Below are positions 5,126 to 11,572 of a DNA stretch of 64,000 nucleotides, piece by piece; within the stretch, counting starts at the first letter, position 1, and every line of letters starts with the position of its first letter. The DNA is from Methanosphaerula palustris E1-9c (GTDB lineage Archaea; Halobacteriota; Methanomicrobia; Methanomicrobiales; Methanospirillaceae): NCBI RefSeq assembly GCF_000021965.1, contig NC_011832.1, positions 496,001 to 560,000 of the forward strand, given 5' to 3'. The notes beneath the pieces were generated by a model. That model was not told the origin of the DNA. It saw only the letters and a program-made list of their open reading frames with translations, and did not search any database. Position numbers and translations under genes: made by a program.

Positions 5126-7009
5126 TCAGAGTGAATTAAAGAGCATGACCACATCATTGAAGTTGATCTTCCCGTCCCCGGTGAAGTCGAAGGCGGCGAC
5201 CGGTTCATTCGCGGCAATCCAGTCCATCTGGTTGAAGAAGAGCACGACGTCATTGAAGTCGAGCACCCCGTTGCCGTTCACGTCCTCGTACGTACCATCC
5301 CCGTTCAGATCTCGCGGGACACCGGTCCCTCCCGGGACGATCCCGATCGGGACAGTGGATTTCGTGAACTCGATCCAGTTGATGTTCTGGCCATCACCTG
5401 AGAAGGTTAAATTCAGGACATGCATGCCGGCCGTGAGCGTGACCGGGATCGGGACCGTTGAACCCGTGGGTCCGGGTGTCGGTGTCTGCGGGGGAAGGTC
5501 GACGTACATAAACGGGGTGACGTTGGTGAACGTAGCGAAGGATCCGGTGTTCGGGATGGTGATCGTCGGGAATTGGACCCCGTCGATCGAGAGCTCGACG
5601 GTCCGGTCGTTGTTCGGGCTTGCCACGCGGGCCGTCAGGGTGTATGAACCAGCCTGGGTGACGTTCACCGTGTAGGTGAGCCACTCGCCGTCCCTGATCC
5701 AGCCGACGTCCGGCGTACCCTCCGCGGGGTTGGCCTCGATGTCGACATCATCCTGGCGATAGGCACCGCCAGTGTTACCTGGTGTTGTGTCGTGGTACGC
5801 GATCCCTTCACCGCCGAGGTTGTAGTCCTCGGCCTCGATCCGGCCCGGGATGGTCAGGGCTTTATAGGGCGTTGGGCTGACCCCCTCGAATGGGTACCCA
5901 GGTGTTCCACCCAGGATCTCACCGAGCGAAAGACCGCCGTAGATCAGATCGTTGGGTGTGATCATAAGGTCGGTCACGATGACGAAGTGCGGATCACGGT
6001 GGTCGATCCGGTGCCAGCCTCTGGAGAAGACATTCAGCGCGTCGATCTGTAGGTCTCCATTATAATATTTCTCGATCTCCCATCGATCCCCATTCTTTAC
6101 CACGTCGTATGTGGTGTAGATCGGGAACGACCCCTCGGTCCACTGCACCCGGGCGACCACCTGTCCTGTTGTGTTCGAGGCATCAGTACCGAGGACATCC
6201 CCGACCAGGTACCGGGGTTGATCGCTCTGGCTCGGGGGAGAGTCCCAGAGTTCAGGTCCGTAGCCTTCCCCGGCAAGGAATTCGGCGAACGAGAGATGGT
6301 ACCACCCAGTGTCGCCGGTATTGGTGATTGTATCATTCACGATGACGGTGTGCGGATCCGCATGGGCGAGTCGGCGCATGCCCATGCTGATCAGTGTCTC
6401 CTCTGGCAGGCCGAAGCCATTGTAGTCGAACGAATCGATCTCCCAGCGGTCCCCATTCTTCACCACGTCGTACGTTCTGTAATAAATCTGGCCGTTATTG
6501 GTGTATTCTCTCCCGATCAGGGTTCCACCTGTGGGAGCATACGTATTGTTCAGGATGTCACCGGTGACATAAAGCGGGGTTCCCGCTCCGGTCTCTCTTG
6601 GAGCGGGCTCGACCGGGTAGGCGATGCCGGCCAGGGCCTCGGCCAGCGAGAGGCCGGTGTACTGCATATCCCCACCGGTGATCGTCGGGTCCGTGATGAC
6701 CACGAGGATCGGGTCAGCATGCGCGACCCTGTATGCGTGAAGGTTCACAACAAGGTTCTGTTCATCGACCTGAAAATTGCCGTGCCAGTACTTCGGGATC
6801 TCCCAGCGCCCGGCTCTGCTGACCACGTTGTAGGTAGTATAAATCGGGGTCGCGCCGCCGGTCTGCACTCCGGCGACCACAACAGTCTCGTTTATACTGA
6901 TAGTTAGGACATCACCCACCACATAGCGTGGGGTTCCGGGGGTGTAAGCGTTGTCTGCCGTAACCGGTACGATGAGAAGGAGGAGCAGCACTACTGCGAA
7001 ATATCGCAT
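5126..7009 (-). CDS. Secreted repeat protein with CBM6/35-like and dockerin domains
   Basis: The 627-residue protein starts with a signal peptide (MRYFAVVLLLLLIVPVTA). Three homologous modules of about 110 residues follow, starting near residues 25, 143 and 262. Each has a Y-V-GD-[VI]L opening, a central IYTTY(N/D)VV with RWEI, then AHADP/DHRDP and a GLSLAE-like end. A carbohydrate-binding module of CBM6/35 type spans about 385-555 (IPGRIEAEDYN, VGWIRDGEWLTYTV, HVLNLTFSGDGQNINWIEF). The C-terminus (about 565-627) is a type I dockerin with two calcium-loop repeats, DLNGDG...VLDFNDVV and DFTGDGKINFNDVV. Dockerins bind cohesins; no cohesin is seen here. The protein is probably extracellular, bound to glycans or to a surface partner. 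The function of the three repeats is unknown. Confidence 0.85.
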   Translation of the reverse strand: MRYFAVVLLLLLIVPVTADNAYTPGTPRYVVGDVLTISINETVVVAGVQTGGATPIYTTYNVVSRAGRWEIPKYWHGNFQVDEQNLVVNLHAYRVAHADPILVVITDPTITGGDMQYTGLSLAEALAGIAYPVEPAPRETGAGTPLYVTGDILNNTYAPTGGTLIGREYTNNGQIYYRTYDVVKNGDRWEIDSFDYNGFGLPEETLISMGMRRLAHADPHTVIVNDTITNTGDTGWYHLSFAEFLAGEGYGPELWDSPPSQSDQPRYLVGDVLGTDASNTTGQVVARVQWTEGSFPIYTTYDVVKNGDRWEIEKYYNGDLQIDALNVFSRGWHRIDHRDPHFVIVTDLMITPNDLIYGGLSLGEILGGTPGYPFEGVSPTPYKALTIPGRIEAEDYNLGGEGIAYHDTTPGNTGGAYRQDDVDIEANPAEGTPDVGWIRDGEWLTYTVNVTQAGSYTLTARVASPNNDRTVELSIDGVQFPTITIPNTGSFATFTNVTPFMYVDLPPQTPTPGPTGSTVPIPVTLTAGMHVLNLTFSGDGQNINWIEFTKSTVPIGIVPGGTGVPRDLNGDGTYEDVNGNGVLDFNDVVLFFNQMDWIAANEPVAAFDFTGDGKINFNDVVMLFNSL

Positions 7010-7221
7010 AAGGATATGCTAGTCGTTCAACTATATATCACTGGGTTTGGTGAGCCCGGGCTATGGGTTCTTTGCCCCTCCTGTGCTGTGCAGTTTTAAT
7101 ATGGGGATTTGCGGTACTTCAGCTCGACTTTGGGTGGCAGGCTGCACATTTGATCAGAATTGTTAAGGAGTTCACAGGTTGAGATCATACTGAAGGTGCA
7201 GATGACAGGATCTGTTCGATC

Positions 7222-8226
7222 ATGAGGTGGGCGTTCATCGTCCTGCCGGCTCTGGTTATCGCCCTGGTAGCGGCTCTGGTCCTCGTCCAGAGTGGAACCG
7301 CTGCCGACCCCCTGAAGATCAATGGTATCCGACTCTCCTCGGCCGATTCAGAGCCGAATTATCCCACGATATCAGGTCAGTATGTGGTCTGGGAGGAGGA
7401 TCGAGGAGTAGATGCTCAGATCTGGCTGTACAACCTGACGACAAACTCCAGCCGCCCTCTCTCCCCGCATCTGGGGAACCAGTTCGCGCCGGCCATCTCT
7501 GGTGATCGGGTGGTCTGGCAGGACAAGCGGAACGGGAATTGGGATATCTATCTGTACAACATCACGACTGGTGTGGAGGCCCCGGTCTGCACGGATCCTG
7601 CAAAACAGGTCAGACCACGGATTTCCGGAGATGCTATCGTCTGGACAGATTATCGGAATGGCAATCCTGACATCTACCGGTACGATCTCGGTACCCAGAC
7701 AGAGCAACCTGTCTGTATTGACCCCGCAACGCAGTAGCTTCCCGACGTATCAGGGGATCGTATCGTCTGGGAGGATTATCGGGAAGGATTCGTTAATTCA
7801 GGAGATATCTACCTGTATAACATTACCTCTCAGCAGGAGCAGGTCGTGGTCAACCTCTCAAGGGGCCAGTGGGCTCCCTCGATCTCTGGTGATCGAGTGG
7901 TCTGGCAGGACTACCGTTCTGGCGCGGCATTTGATATCTACATGAGGAACCTGACTACCGATAGTGAACAGGTGATCTGTGCGGATCCCGGGCGACAGTG
8001 GCTGCCGAAGGTATCTGGGGATCTGGTGACCTGGGTGGACTCCAGTGGTGAGGAATGGACGATCACCGCCTATAATCTGACCTCCGGGGTTAGGTACCAG
8101 TTCGGCTCTGGTACAGCAGATCAGTGCTGGTCTGAGGTGTCAGATGGTCGGGTGGTCTGGATGGATTACCGGGACAATCAGAACAAGGTTTACCTGTCAG
8201 ACCTGACTGGTTCAAACGCTTCATAA
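7222..8226 (+). pseudogene. Secreted seven-bladed beta-propeller gene interrupted by an amber codon
   Basis: The frame from ATG 7222 encodes a signal peptide (MRWAFIVLPALVIALVAALV) and TolB-like propeller repeats of the form [IV]SGD-x-VVW-x-D-x-R...DIYLYN[LI]T. A TAG at 7735-7737 stops it after three blades. The same frame continues open to TAA 8224-8226 with four more blades, giving seven in all, the normal number for a closed propeller. By alignment with QWLPKVSGD in a later blade, the TAG replaces Trp, one base from TGG. It is therefore most likely a recent nonsense mutation, or a sequencing error or readthrough. The product may act at the cell surface; its ligand is unknown. Confidence 0.75.
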
Positions 8227-8256
8227 CCCCTAATCTAAAGTTCATGGAGATCCCGT

Positions 8257-8376
8257 ATGGAACATTCAATGTTTCTTATGGTCATCGGTATTCAGATCGT
8301 ACTCGTCATCGTCGTAATGCTCATCTCCTCCAGGGGACTCGACGGCGGGGCTGGTAAAAAGGGAGATCTGCAGTGA
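8257..8376 (+). CDS. Short single-span membrane protein (tandem paralogue 1)
   Basis: ATG 8257 opens a 39-residue frame beginning MEHSMFLMVIGIQIVLVIVV, followed by a short tail with GLDGG. One hydrophobic helix spans almost the whole N-terminal half. A very similar frame lies 244 bp downstream (8621-8770) with the same start (ME[HR]SM) and the same GLDGG after the helix. That duplication is the main evidence it is real. I do not recognise the family; no function is proposed. Confidence 0.55.
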   Translation: MEHSMFLMVIGIQIVLVIVVMLISSRGLDGGAGKKGDLQ

Positions 8377-8586
8377 TAATCGAGAATTTGAATGGTTGAG
8401 TCAGACGAATCGAACGACCAGTATGACGGATGGTTCTGCTCTTTGGAATGCCGGCCGGCAGCCCATTGACCTGCGTGCAACCCGATCCAATAGCAGATGC
8501 ATGGGTTGATATCGCCGGCCGGAGCCGGTCAGAGAATGAAAGAATTTTCGATCTATCAGACATTTTCGGTCCAAGTATTTCATAAC

Positions 8587-8596
8587 GTTTATATGT
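8587..8596 (+). promoter_or_regulatory. TATA box of the second micro-membrane-protein gene
   Basis: GTTTATATGT lies about 30 bp before ATG 8621, in an AT-rich stretch unlike the GC-rich surroundings. This fits an archaeal promoter giving a very short leader. Confidence 0.5.
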
Positions 8597-8620
8597 AAAA
8601 AATTATTATTATTATCTACT

Positions 8621-8770
8621 ATGGAACGTTCAATGCTTCTTATGGTTGTTGGTCTTCTGGCTGTCATCGTCATCGCTGTCACAGCCATCTCCTATCTGGG
8701 GCTCGATGGTGGACTGTTGCAGGGAAATCTGCAGGGTATGATGTGTGTAGCCAGGCCATACGGCCAATAA
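8621..8770 (+). CDS. Short single-span membrane protein (tandem paralogue 2)
   Basis: ATG 8621 opens a 49-residue frame beginning MERSMLLMVVGLLAVIVIAV, then SYLGLDGGLL and a polar end. It is the paralogue of the 39-residue frame at 8257. A TATA-like GTTTATATGT at 8587-8596 lies about 30 bp before the ATG, which suggests its own near-leaderless promoter. The C-terminus differs from copy 1 and carries a single Cys. The family is not recognised. It ends 46 bp from the convergent NRAMP-like gene, with a T-run between them. Confidence 0.6.
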   Translation: MERSMLLMVVGLLAVIVIAVTAISYLGLDGGLLQGNLQGMMCVARPYGQ

Positions 8771-8815
8771 CTGGATACTTTTAACCTCCTTCTTTTTTAA
8801 GCGTCAGATCTGTTA

Positions 8816-10069
8816 TCACATCATCGCATAATAGATTGCGGCCACTGGAAAGAGTACACTGCCTGCAGCCATCACACCATACCAGAGCCAGGAGCCCTGG
8901 GCATAGGGGGGGAGGGTTCTATCCAGGTAAATCAGCAGCAGCCCGACGAGGCCAAAGACCATCATTGAGAGGGTGACGAGTTCCTTGGCGAGATATTTGT
9001 CTCCTATAAATGCGAAGATGATGAAGAGCGCGGCAAAGACAAGGACCATCCCTTTGTACAGCCTGTCCTCGGCGTCTTTCCGGTTTATCGTCTGCGCAAT
9101 GAGCGTCGCGACTGCTCGGGCTCTGCCATCCAGGGCCCCGATCAGGTAGACAAAGAGGGTGACGAAACTGATGATCAGAAAGATCGTCATCCCGAACGGA
9201 ACCGTGTTAAGCGTATGCCCGATCAGCCTGATCATCAGGTCGTTCTCGAAGGCCGACATTCCCTCCTCATTCATCACCACGAACCCGATCGTGAGGTAAA
9301 AGAACGAGAGGAGGCCGAGGAGCAGAAACCCGAGGGTGAGATCGAAAGAGACCAGATTGATATGTTCCTTAAAGAAGGCTTCGCCATGGGCCCCTTTAGT
9401 CTCCTTCTCCAGCCACATCGAGTAGCAGAGGAGTGAAAGCCCGGTCCCGAGAGAAGCCATGATCGAACCGATATAGTAGAGCAGTTCGTTGTTTCCAAGG
9501 TCCGGGGCGAATCCGGCAGCGATGTCAGGGACTGAAAAGTACAGGGTGTTGAGGTTGTATAGCAACCCGCAAACGATGATCACCCCTGCAACCACCATGA
9601 TCTTCTTGAAGAGCGGGTATGAGTTGTGATACAGGATGGCGGTGATCCCTGCGATCATCAGGATGACGGTCAGTTTGGCAGGTAACTCGATTGGGAGGAT
9701 TGAGGCAAGCAGGCTTGCAGCCACCATCGCACCAGCCCCGTGGTTCATAACCTCGATCAGATAGATCCCACCGATGACCGGTGTCTCCACGGTCCGGAAA
9801 CCCGGGACTCTGCGCAGCCCGGCATAGATGTTCTCCCCCTGTGAGACTGTATACCTGGCGATCCCTCTGTTGAAAGCGTACTTGTAGACAAGGACCGCAA
9901 GGATGGCCCAGAGGATCAGGTAACCATAGTCAGAGCCGAGTCCGATGAGGGTTAAGAGGCCGACCCAGCCCGCCGAGGACATGGCAAGGGACAGCCCGGG
10001 GCCGACAAACCTGAACCTCTTTCTGATCAGATCCCACAGGTGCGGAATGGAAAACATGGATGACGCCAT
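8816..10069 (-). CDS. NRAMP-like membrane transporter with diverged metal-site motifs
   Basis: This 417-residue protein has about eleven predicted membrane helices and the general NRAMP (MntH) layout, opening with RFRFVGPGLSLAMSSAGWVG. In true NRAMP metal transporters TM1 has DPGN and TM6 has MPH. Here the equivalent places read SSAG and, in the helix before SMWLEKETKG, ASLGTG, so the canonical Mn/Fe ligands appear absent. It may be an NRAMP-related protein with another substrate, or a related APC-fold carrier. The gene stands alone. Alternative starts exist at Met5; the first ATG is kept. Confidence 0.6.
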   Translation of the reverse strand: MASSMFSIPHLWDLIRKRFRFVGPGLSLAMSSAGWVGLLTLIGLGSDYGYLILWAILAVLVYKYAFNRGIARYTVSQGENIYAGLRRVPGFRTVETPVIGGIYLIEVMNHGAGAMVAASLLASILPIELPAKLTVILMIAGITAILYHNSYPLFKKIMVVAGVIIVCGLLYNLNTLYFSVPDIAAGFAPDLGNNELLYYIGSIMASLGTGLSLLCYSMWLEKETKGAHGEAFFKEHINLVSFDLTLGFLLLGLLSFFYLTIGFVVMNEEGMSAFENDLMIRLIGHTLNTVPFGMTIFLIISFVTLFVYLIGALDGRARAVATLIAQTINRKDAEDRLYKGMVLVFAALFIIFAFIGDKYLAKELVTLSMMVFGLVGLLLIYLDRTLPPYAQGSWLWYGVMAAGSVLFPVAAIYYAMM

Positions 10070-10163: not shown

Positions 10164-10916
10164 GTGATCGATCTTACGGAAGTTCCATTGGTATCACGAT
10201 GGTATAGGCCCGGACTGGCCTTCTTCTCCCTACTGCTGGCCGGCTCGCTCGGCCTTCTCCTGGCCGTTCTCCTCCTACCATCCCACACCTTCGATGGGTA
10301 TGGGACGGTCAGCAATGGCCTGCAGTTGCTGACCAGTATCGCCTGTCTGATCGTCTGTGTATCTGCATACATCTTCTGGTCACGGGACCTGTTGCTGATT
10401 TATGCAGGGTTTGCATTTGGTGGTTGGACCCTGGCCAACACCTTCTGGTATGCCTACACCCTGATCATCGGGCCAACACTGATGTACCCAACCGTCTCTG
10501 AAGCGGGTTTTCTCGGGGTCTTCCTCTTCCTGGCTTCAGGCTATTTGGAGGTCTTTCCCAGTTCTGCCTGGTCACTGCCCCGGTTGGGGGGTTTTGCCAT
10601 CTGTCTCATCATACTCTTATCCGTTCCTGTATACCTGATCATCCAACTCGGCCTCACCCTCTCAACAGGGGTCACTCTCCTCTTCTTTTTCTTCGGTGGA
10701 TACCTGCTCCTTGTCTCCCTCTCTCGCCAGGTCTATGAAGAGCGTTTCCTCTTCGCCGGAACGCTTATGGTGATCGTGGCCCACCTGATCTATGCGGTCC
10801 GTGAGGCTGCATACCCTGACTTCTGGCTGTTTCGAATCGTCGGTCCCCTGGTTGTGTTATCGTTCTGTCTGCTGGAGATCGGGTTGTTGCAGCGGATATG
10901 GGAGGGACGGATATGA
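10164..10916 (+). CDS. Polytopic membrane protein of unknown function
   Basis: This 250-residue protein has about seven or eight hydrophobic helices, short loops and no catalytic motif I recognise. The start is taken as GTG 10164; no clear Shine-Dalgarno sequence supports it, and downstream TTG codons are possible. Its stop overlaps the ATG of the next gene (ATGA at 10913-10916), so the two are very likely translated together. The partner is a PrsW-like membrane protease, which suggests a joint membrane role. No specific function is claimed. Confidence 0.7.
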   Translation: MIDLTEVPLVSRWYRPGLAFFSLLLAGSLGLLLAVLLLPSHTFDGYGTVSNGLQLLTSIACLIVCVSAYIFWSRDLLLIYAGFAFGGWTLANTFWYAYTLIIGPTLMYPTVSEAGFLGVFLFLASGYLEVFPSSAWSLPRLGGFAICLIILLSVPVYLIIQLGLTLSTGVTLLFFFFGGYLLLVSLSRQVYEERFLFAGTLMVIVAHLIYAVREAAYPDFWLFRIVGPLVVLSFCLLEIGLLQRIWEGRI

Positions 10917-11572
10917 TCGTTGCATTCTTCCTTGCGGCAGCGATCCCGCTCTGTTTTCTGCAGATCTTCCTCGAAGGTAAACAGCGGGTGATCGTCTCGT
11001 TCCTGGTCTGGGGACTCTGTGCCGGGGTGATAGCGTATTACCTCAACTCCAGTCTGGCCGACCTCTTCGCCTCGACTACCATGATCCCCGGTATCACGAT
11101 CGCCCCGGTTGTCGAGGAGTTTCTCAAAGCGCTGCCCCTCTTTCTGATCCTGCCGCTGACCGGTCGACGGTATGATCGGTCGTTGCTGGTGCTGGCCATG
11201 GCCTCTGGATTCGGATTTGCGATCCTTGAGAACTACGTCTATCTCTCCGATCTCACCCTGACTGGGGTCGGTCCTATCGTGTACGCCGTACTCCGGGGGA
11301 TCACCAGTTCATTGATGCATGGATGTATGACCGCGATCATCGGCTATGGGATCTTCCTGACGAGCAATCTTTCAAAAAGGTCTCTCCCGGTCCTCCTCTT
11401 CGGTCTGTACACCATTGCGATCACCCTCCATGCCCTCTACAACCTGCTGGTTGAATACTCTGGGATTGGCAGGGTGTTCGCCATCAGCGCGCCGCTGACT
11501 CTCTTCATTCTGCTGCTCGTGGCTTACAACTGGGGGGTGCTGATAGGAGAAGTGGATGGCCAGAAGGAATGA
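10913..11572 (+). CDS. PrsW-like intramembrane metalloprotease family protein
   Basis: This 219-residue protein has about seven helices. It carries the PrsW family motifs: VVEEFLKALPLF (the EExxK motif), FGFAILENYVY (FxxxE) and two His-containing helices, RGITSSLMHG and TLHALYN. In Bacillus, PrsW starts cleavage of an anti-sigma factor. The archaeal family members have no known substrate. The ATG at 10913 overlaps the previous stop and follows GGGAGG at about 10900, which is a better start than the upstream in-frame ATG at 10898. Confidence 0.8.
   Translation: MIVAFFLAAAIPLCFLQIFLEGKQRVIVSFLVWGLCAGVIAYYLNSSLADLFASTTMIPGITIAPVVEEFLKALPLFLILPLTGRRYDRSLLVLAMASGFGFAILENYVYLSDLTLTGVGPIVYAVLRGITSSLMHGCMTAIIGYGIFLTSNLSKRSLPVLLFGLYTIAITLHALYNLLVEYSGIGRVFAISAPLTLFILLLVAYNWGVLIGEVDGQKE

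Follow-up and report, generated by a model that had tools for sequence, protein, structure and literature searches.

Small proteins have been linked to membrane transporters in both archaea and bacteria. In Methanosarcina mazei, the 61-amino-acid (aa) protein sP36 regulates the ammonium transporter AmtB1 (PMC10714827), and the membrane-associated small protein sORF_05 is encoded in a methylamine operon, beside a permease (PMC11456600). In E. coli, the small protein MntS is co-induced with the importer MntH (PMC4361602). Here we analyze a window of 64,000 nucleotides from Methanosphaerula palustris E1-9c (NC_011832.1, positions 496,001 to 560,000; all positions below are those of the window) in which a 49-aa single-span membrane microprotein is encoded next to an Nramp-like permease. 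The role that we propose for it is of the sP36 type, a methanogen small protein linked to a transporter, and the likeness is one of description: sP36 moves from the cytoplasm to the membrane, whereas the M. palustris protein has a permanent hydrophobic helix (PMC10714827). Likened again by description, sORF_05 is also a hydrophobic helical small protein near a permease gene that earlier annotation overlooked; its neighborhood is different, and its function too is a proposed one (PMC11456600). MntS is a small protein tied to an Nramp-family system, as this one may be, but it belongs to bacterial manganese homeostasis, whereas the M. palustris permease lacks the canonical metal motifs (PMC4361602). 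A further parallel is MtrI of M. mazei, a small methanogen protein that had escaped annotation, is restricted to one order and binds a membrane complex; its partner is the Mtr complex, and it belongs to another order (PMC12774963).

Two small frames and a third paralog

The first-pass annotation described a 39-codon and a 49-codon frame, separated by 244 bp, which share an ME[HR]SM start and one hydrophobic helix followed by GLDGG, and we confirmed this description. The features of the locus are as follows.

7222–8226, plus strand: beta-propeller gene with archaeal beta-propeller repeats (Pfam PD40, E 1.7e-6) and an in-frame TAG at 7735–7737
8257–8376, plus strand: copy 1, a 39-codon paralog (39 aa, MEHSMFLMVIGIQIVLVIVVMLISSRGLDGGAGKKGDLQ) with a truncated tail, probably relaxed or decaying
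8550–8585, plus strand: relic of a duplicated propeller gene 3′ end upstream of copy 2, DLSDIFGPSIS-stop (compare YLSDLTGSNAS-stop at 8191–8226), from a 185-bp DNA match
8588–8595, plus strand: TATA box TTTATATG of copy 2, 33 nt before the ATG (weight matrix score 11.1, p=0.0005 versus 2183 ATGs)
8621–8770, plus strand: copy 2, encoding a 49-aa single-span membrane microprotein (MERSMLLMVVGLLAVIVIAVTAISYLGLDGGLLQGNLQGMMCVARPYGQ); orthologs, dN/dS and codon-position counts show it to be constrained
8793–8798, plus strand: oligo-T run TTTTTT, archaeal terminator-like in sequence, 22 nt after the copy 2 stop codon
8816–10069, minus strand: 417-aa Nramp-like permease, convergent, lacking the canonical motifs DPGN and MPH; it scores 54 bits with NCBIfam NF037982 (cut-off 50)
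10164–10916, plus strand: 250-aa polytopic membrane protein of no family; sister-genus genomes encode similar proteins at this position
10898–11572, plus strand: PrsW-family intramembrane protease (PF13367, E 2e-27)

Copies 1 and 2 are 58% identical across 38 codons. With copy 2 as the query against the M. palustris genome (a single contig of 2,922,917 bases), copy 1 was recovered at E=1.4e-5, placing the proposed paralogy above chance level, and a third paralog at E=9e-13. This copy 3 lies at C1:1383647, about 880 kb from copies 1 and 2, encodes 49 aa (MERSTLLKIFGFLVVLVIAITVISYLGLDGGLVRENLQGVLGSFSRPPP) and is 60% identical to copy 2. A search of the same genome with a family profile found no fourth copy. 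Elsewhere in the window, a 627-aa protein with CBM6 and dockerin type I domains, here in a methanogen, is encoded at 5126–7009 on the minus strand, and CBM6-like sequence lies downstream of copy 3 (locus L002, from about 2114). A viral origin was considered and rejected, as no phage record matched.

The copy 2 protein would begin with a short N-terminus that is charged (ME-R-R/S), cross the membrane once as a helix and end in an LG[LIV]D turn followed by a brief C-terminal tail. The highest Kyte-Doolittle means over 19 residues, 3.04 for copy 2 and 3.13 for copy 1, classify both as single-span proteins, and AlphaFold2 modeled a helix at residues 2–25 of the tiny protein with good confidence. 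By the positive-inside rule, the positive N-terminus suggests a topology with the N-terminus inside and the C-terminus outside. No copy or ortholog tested had a Pfam or NCBIfam match above cut-off.

One frame had been said to carry its own TATA box, and for copy 2 this box is real. We derived empirical p values with a weight matrix taken from general knowledge of archaeal TATA boxes, using all 2183 ATGs of the window as background. TATA-like boxes lie 28–33 nt before the ATG in copies 2 and 3 and in members of the sister genus, g5 (p=0.006 for copy 3, 0.002–0.017 for five g5 members and 0.07 for one), and the best match of copy 1 is weaker (position −37, p=0.03). Copy 2 would be transcribed from its own box, and the spacing fits an mRNA that is probably leaderless or nearly so.

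Duplication of the propeller tail with the small gene

The duplicated unit is the propeller tail plus the tiny gene, because copies 2 and 3 each have a broken propeller 3′ relic upstream. The alignment of copy 3 with its upstream DNA to the propeller tail with copy 1 is 253 bp long (67.6%, E 6e-28). The corresponding match of copy 2 spans 185 bp (65%, E 9e-17), with much of the score supplied by the tiny frame, and its flank homology is a short stretch, weaker than that of the copy 3 flank. The relics were not significant by tblastn with propeller proteins alone, and the evidence for them is the DNA alignment.

Within the frames of the three copies, identity is 68–75% with at most one 3-nt indel; in the 125 alignment columns 5′ of the ATG, it is 44–63% with indels of 1 and 4 nt. 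Conservation at the DNA level with frameshifts, which the first-pass annotation held to speak against coding, is present in the upstream flanks and absent from the frames. The duplicated DNA carries an internal control, an intact micro-gene beside a broken stretch of a large gene, that makes coding conservation separable from DNA similarity. The paralogy of the two frames had itself been presented as an argument for coding. Coding is supported for copy 2 and for the family, but paralogy alone is not decisive because the DNA duplication also spans the 3′ end of the neighboring propeller gene.

Protein-level selection on the family

In a codon alignment of nine sequences, the proposed frame was free of stops in 9/9, whereas the other five frames had stops in 2 to 9 of the 9. 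Differing codons in this alignment had a mean BLOSUM62 score of 1.45 versus −0.31 in shuffled columns, with 0/1000 shuffles reaching 1.45, and the synonymous share of differing codons was 31% overall and 48% within g5. Synonymous sites are near saturation between genera, and dN/dS is trustworthy within g5 and among the three paralogs. It was 0.06 (L027/L028) and 0.11 (L024/L025) for the closest pairs, 0.27 for copy 2 versus copy 3 (Fisher p 4e-4) and 0.40 for copy 1 versus copy 2 (p 0.02).

Changes unique to one copy fell at codon positions 1/2/3 as 1/2/7 in copy 2 and 2/4/7 in copy 3. We took the majority of the three sequences as ancestor and resolved ties toward copy 2, which tilts the counts somewhat for copy 2 and against copies 1 and 3; on this basis, amino-acid changes numbered 3 in copy 2 versus a neutral expectation of 6.6 (p 0.01) and 9 in copy 3 versus 11.4 (p 0.14). 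Codon-position bias, dN/dS of 0.06–0.4 and the frame tests together place the family under protein-level selection, which for copy 1 alone is doubtful or does not hold. Copies 2 and 3 are almost certainly coding genes. DNA homology does run past the frame limits, as would be the case if these were noncoding, chance frames within a DNA-level duplication, but we regard this as extremely improbable given that the frame is conserved across genera, that changes are biased by codon position and that no shuffle reached the observed score.

The fate of copy 1

Unique changes in copy 1 were distributed 7/8/5 over the codon positions, without third-position bias, and differed from those of the other two copies when positions 1+2 were set against position 3 (15 and 5 versus 9 and 14, Fisher p=0.03). 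Its amino-acid changes from the inferred ancestor numbered 15 versus 15.2 expected without selection, the conserved C-terminal tail is missing, and the oligo-T run found after copy 2 is absent. Given changes that are evenly spread over codon positions and as frequent as under neutrality, together with the missing tail and the poor TATA match, copy 1 is probably under relaxed selection or decaying, although the case is moderate rather than strong. It may still be functional, because its hydrophobicity was retained beyond what neutral change would leave (joint p=0.025).

The frame of copy 1 is open, its sole indel is an in-frame one of 3 nt, and the helix and the dN/dS to copy 2 fit a reading in which both frames are functional small-protein genes with diverged roles, copy 1 merely having a shorter tail. 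The even spread over codon positions, the weak TATA match and the loss of oligo-T and tail run counter to this reading, and we consider it rather unlikely. The dN/dS between copies, which had been suggested as a check, is below 1 for copies 1 and 2, and copy 1's own changes came at the neutral rate. Copy 2 held up as a constrained gene, and an equal standing of the two frames as a gene pair is not supported. Copy 1 would be a second copy, left by the duplication of the propeller 3′ end with the tiny gene.

Orthologs and conserved neighborhood

A profile built from six family sequences gave full-length matches (E 1e-12 to 1e-25) in 6/7 genomes of g5 and no orthologs in the rest of the 232 Methanomicrobiales genomes searched, M. 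palustris apart. In a profile search of 394 genomes across the phylum, matches outside the two genera were only partial, lay within long frames and were not convincing. The family is restricted to Methanosphaerula and one sister genus. Carriers in g5 include Methanoregulaceae archaeon UXB-2016 (SISS01), JPNA_maxbin.147 and KLAP88, and the tiny proteins of UBA288, Chersky_702 and UBA11384 are identical to those of the other three g5 carriers. UXB-2016 is a Lake Untersee genome whose 16S is 95% similar to that of M. palustris (PMC6498233). The g5 orthologs have 46–52 aa, an M[EK]RR start, one helix, LG[LIVF][DE] and a tail ending in YPP. The frame is conserved in relatives, at a fixed place in the sister genus, and this conservation, purifying selection and its own promoter and terminator signals support the coding claim for copy 2.

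The order of beta-propeller gene, tiny gene and convergent permease is kept in 7/7 positive genomes (the M. palustris window and six of g5). Of the 232 genomes, these 7 alone carry the tiny gene, and no others carry orthologs of the permease (E<1e-200) and the propeller (E<1e-110) at comparable similarity. The remaining g5 genome, G004, has none of the three. The permease orthologs at the g5 locus have 416 aa. We read the DPGN and MPH regions of the permease directly and found both motifs missing; its fold model (mean pLDDT 38) was too poor for use, and a sequence search against solved structures gave no match. A contig scan with the single permease protein returned no match, and with a permease alignment it returned six named records. 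The propeller ortholog of G019 matches NCBIfam TIGR04275 (E 5e-85). The M. palustris propeller gene is otherwise open around its single TAG. Pyrrolysine was rejected as the reading of this codon, as no PylS over cut-off is present in the genome, so the gene is either a pseudogene or translated by read-through, or the TAG is a sequence error.

In five genomes of genus g12 (G011, G031, G213, G216 and G219), a related propeller gene and a related permease gene are adjacent in divergent orientation, and no hydrophobic frame like the tiny gene lies downstream of related propellers in other genera, g12 included. Because g12 keeps the adjacent pair without the tiny frame, this arrangement suggests that the two large proteins cooperate, the tiny gene being an addition made in a single lineage. 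As the pair exists without it in another genus, the tiny gene would be dispensable for basic function. It is convergent to the permease gene, so the two do not form a common operon.

Possible roles of the microprotein

Size, single helix and tandem arrangement recall the hydrophobic toxins of type I toxin-antitoxin pairs, tiny membrane peptides that also occur in tandem. We hold this role to be highly improbable: synteny with two large genes is fixed in seven genomes, the tail is conserved, antisense frames are not conserved in the nine sequences, and no known RNA family was found at 7000–10000, where the sole match was a microRNA far under its gathering score.

The N-terminus and helix also resemble the signal anchors of neighboring propellers (M[DE]RR...), small residues (A/S) lie near the helix end, and the tail is conserved within the sister genus, features expected if a signal peptide were cleaved and the tail (LLG[IV]D-GFL-G...YPP) released as a short secreted peptide acting outside the cell. 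The helix, however, is without a break, no clear cleavage site was seen on inspection, and the tail differs between genera and is absent in copy 1, which leaves a secreted peptide quite unlikely.

PrsW proteases act on single-span membrane proteins, and a PrsW gene lies in the block both in the window and in 5/6 of the block-bearing sister-genus genomes. The tiny protein could accordingly be a substrate or regulator of this protease, but two genomes from other families have close PrsW relatives and no tiny gene, and permease and propeller track the tiny gene better than PrsW does; we judge this role very unlikely. The gene for the 250-aa membrane protein overlaps the PrsW gene (10164–11572) and is conserved next to the permease.

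On balance, we lean toward an account in which copy 2 is a real membrane-microprotein gene, copy 1 is its relaxed or decaying duplicate, and the copy 2 product would remain membrane-embedded and assist or regulate the local module of propeller and Nramp-like permease. That its direct partner is the permease or the propeller is a tentative suggestion from place and co-occurrence. No permease or intact propeller gene was seen near copy 3, which, if working, would therefore act in trans or have another role. A bolder and unlikely extension is that this one-lineage family may serve, as a subunit or regulator dedicated to it, an atypical membrane permease of Nramp-like type that is paired with an external beta-propeller in a transport module undescribed before, and that in M. 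palustris a fragment of the propeller gene took a copy of the tiny gene with it, the copy outlasting the decay of the large gene.

This microprotein is a well-supported, lineage-specific addition to the small membrane proteins that annotation is prone to overlook, here in methanogens from peatlands and cold lakes. Should the permease prove to be its partner, the control of transporters by small proteins would gain a further archaeal case.
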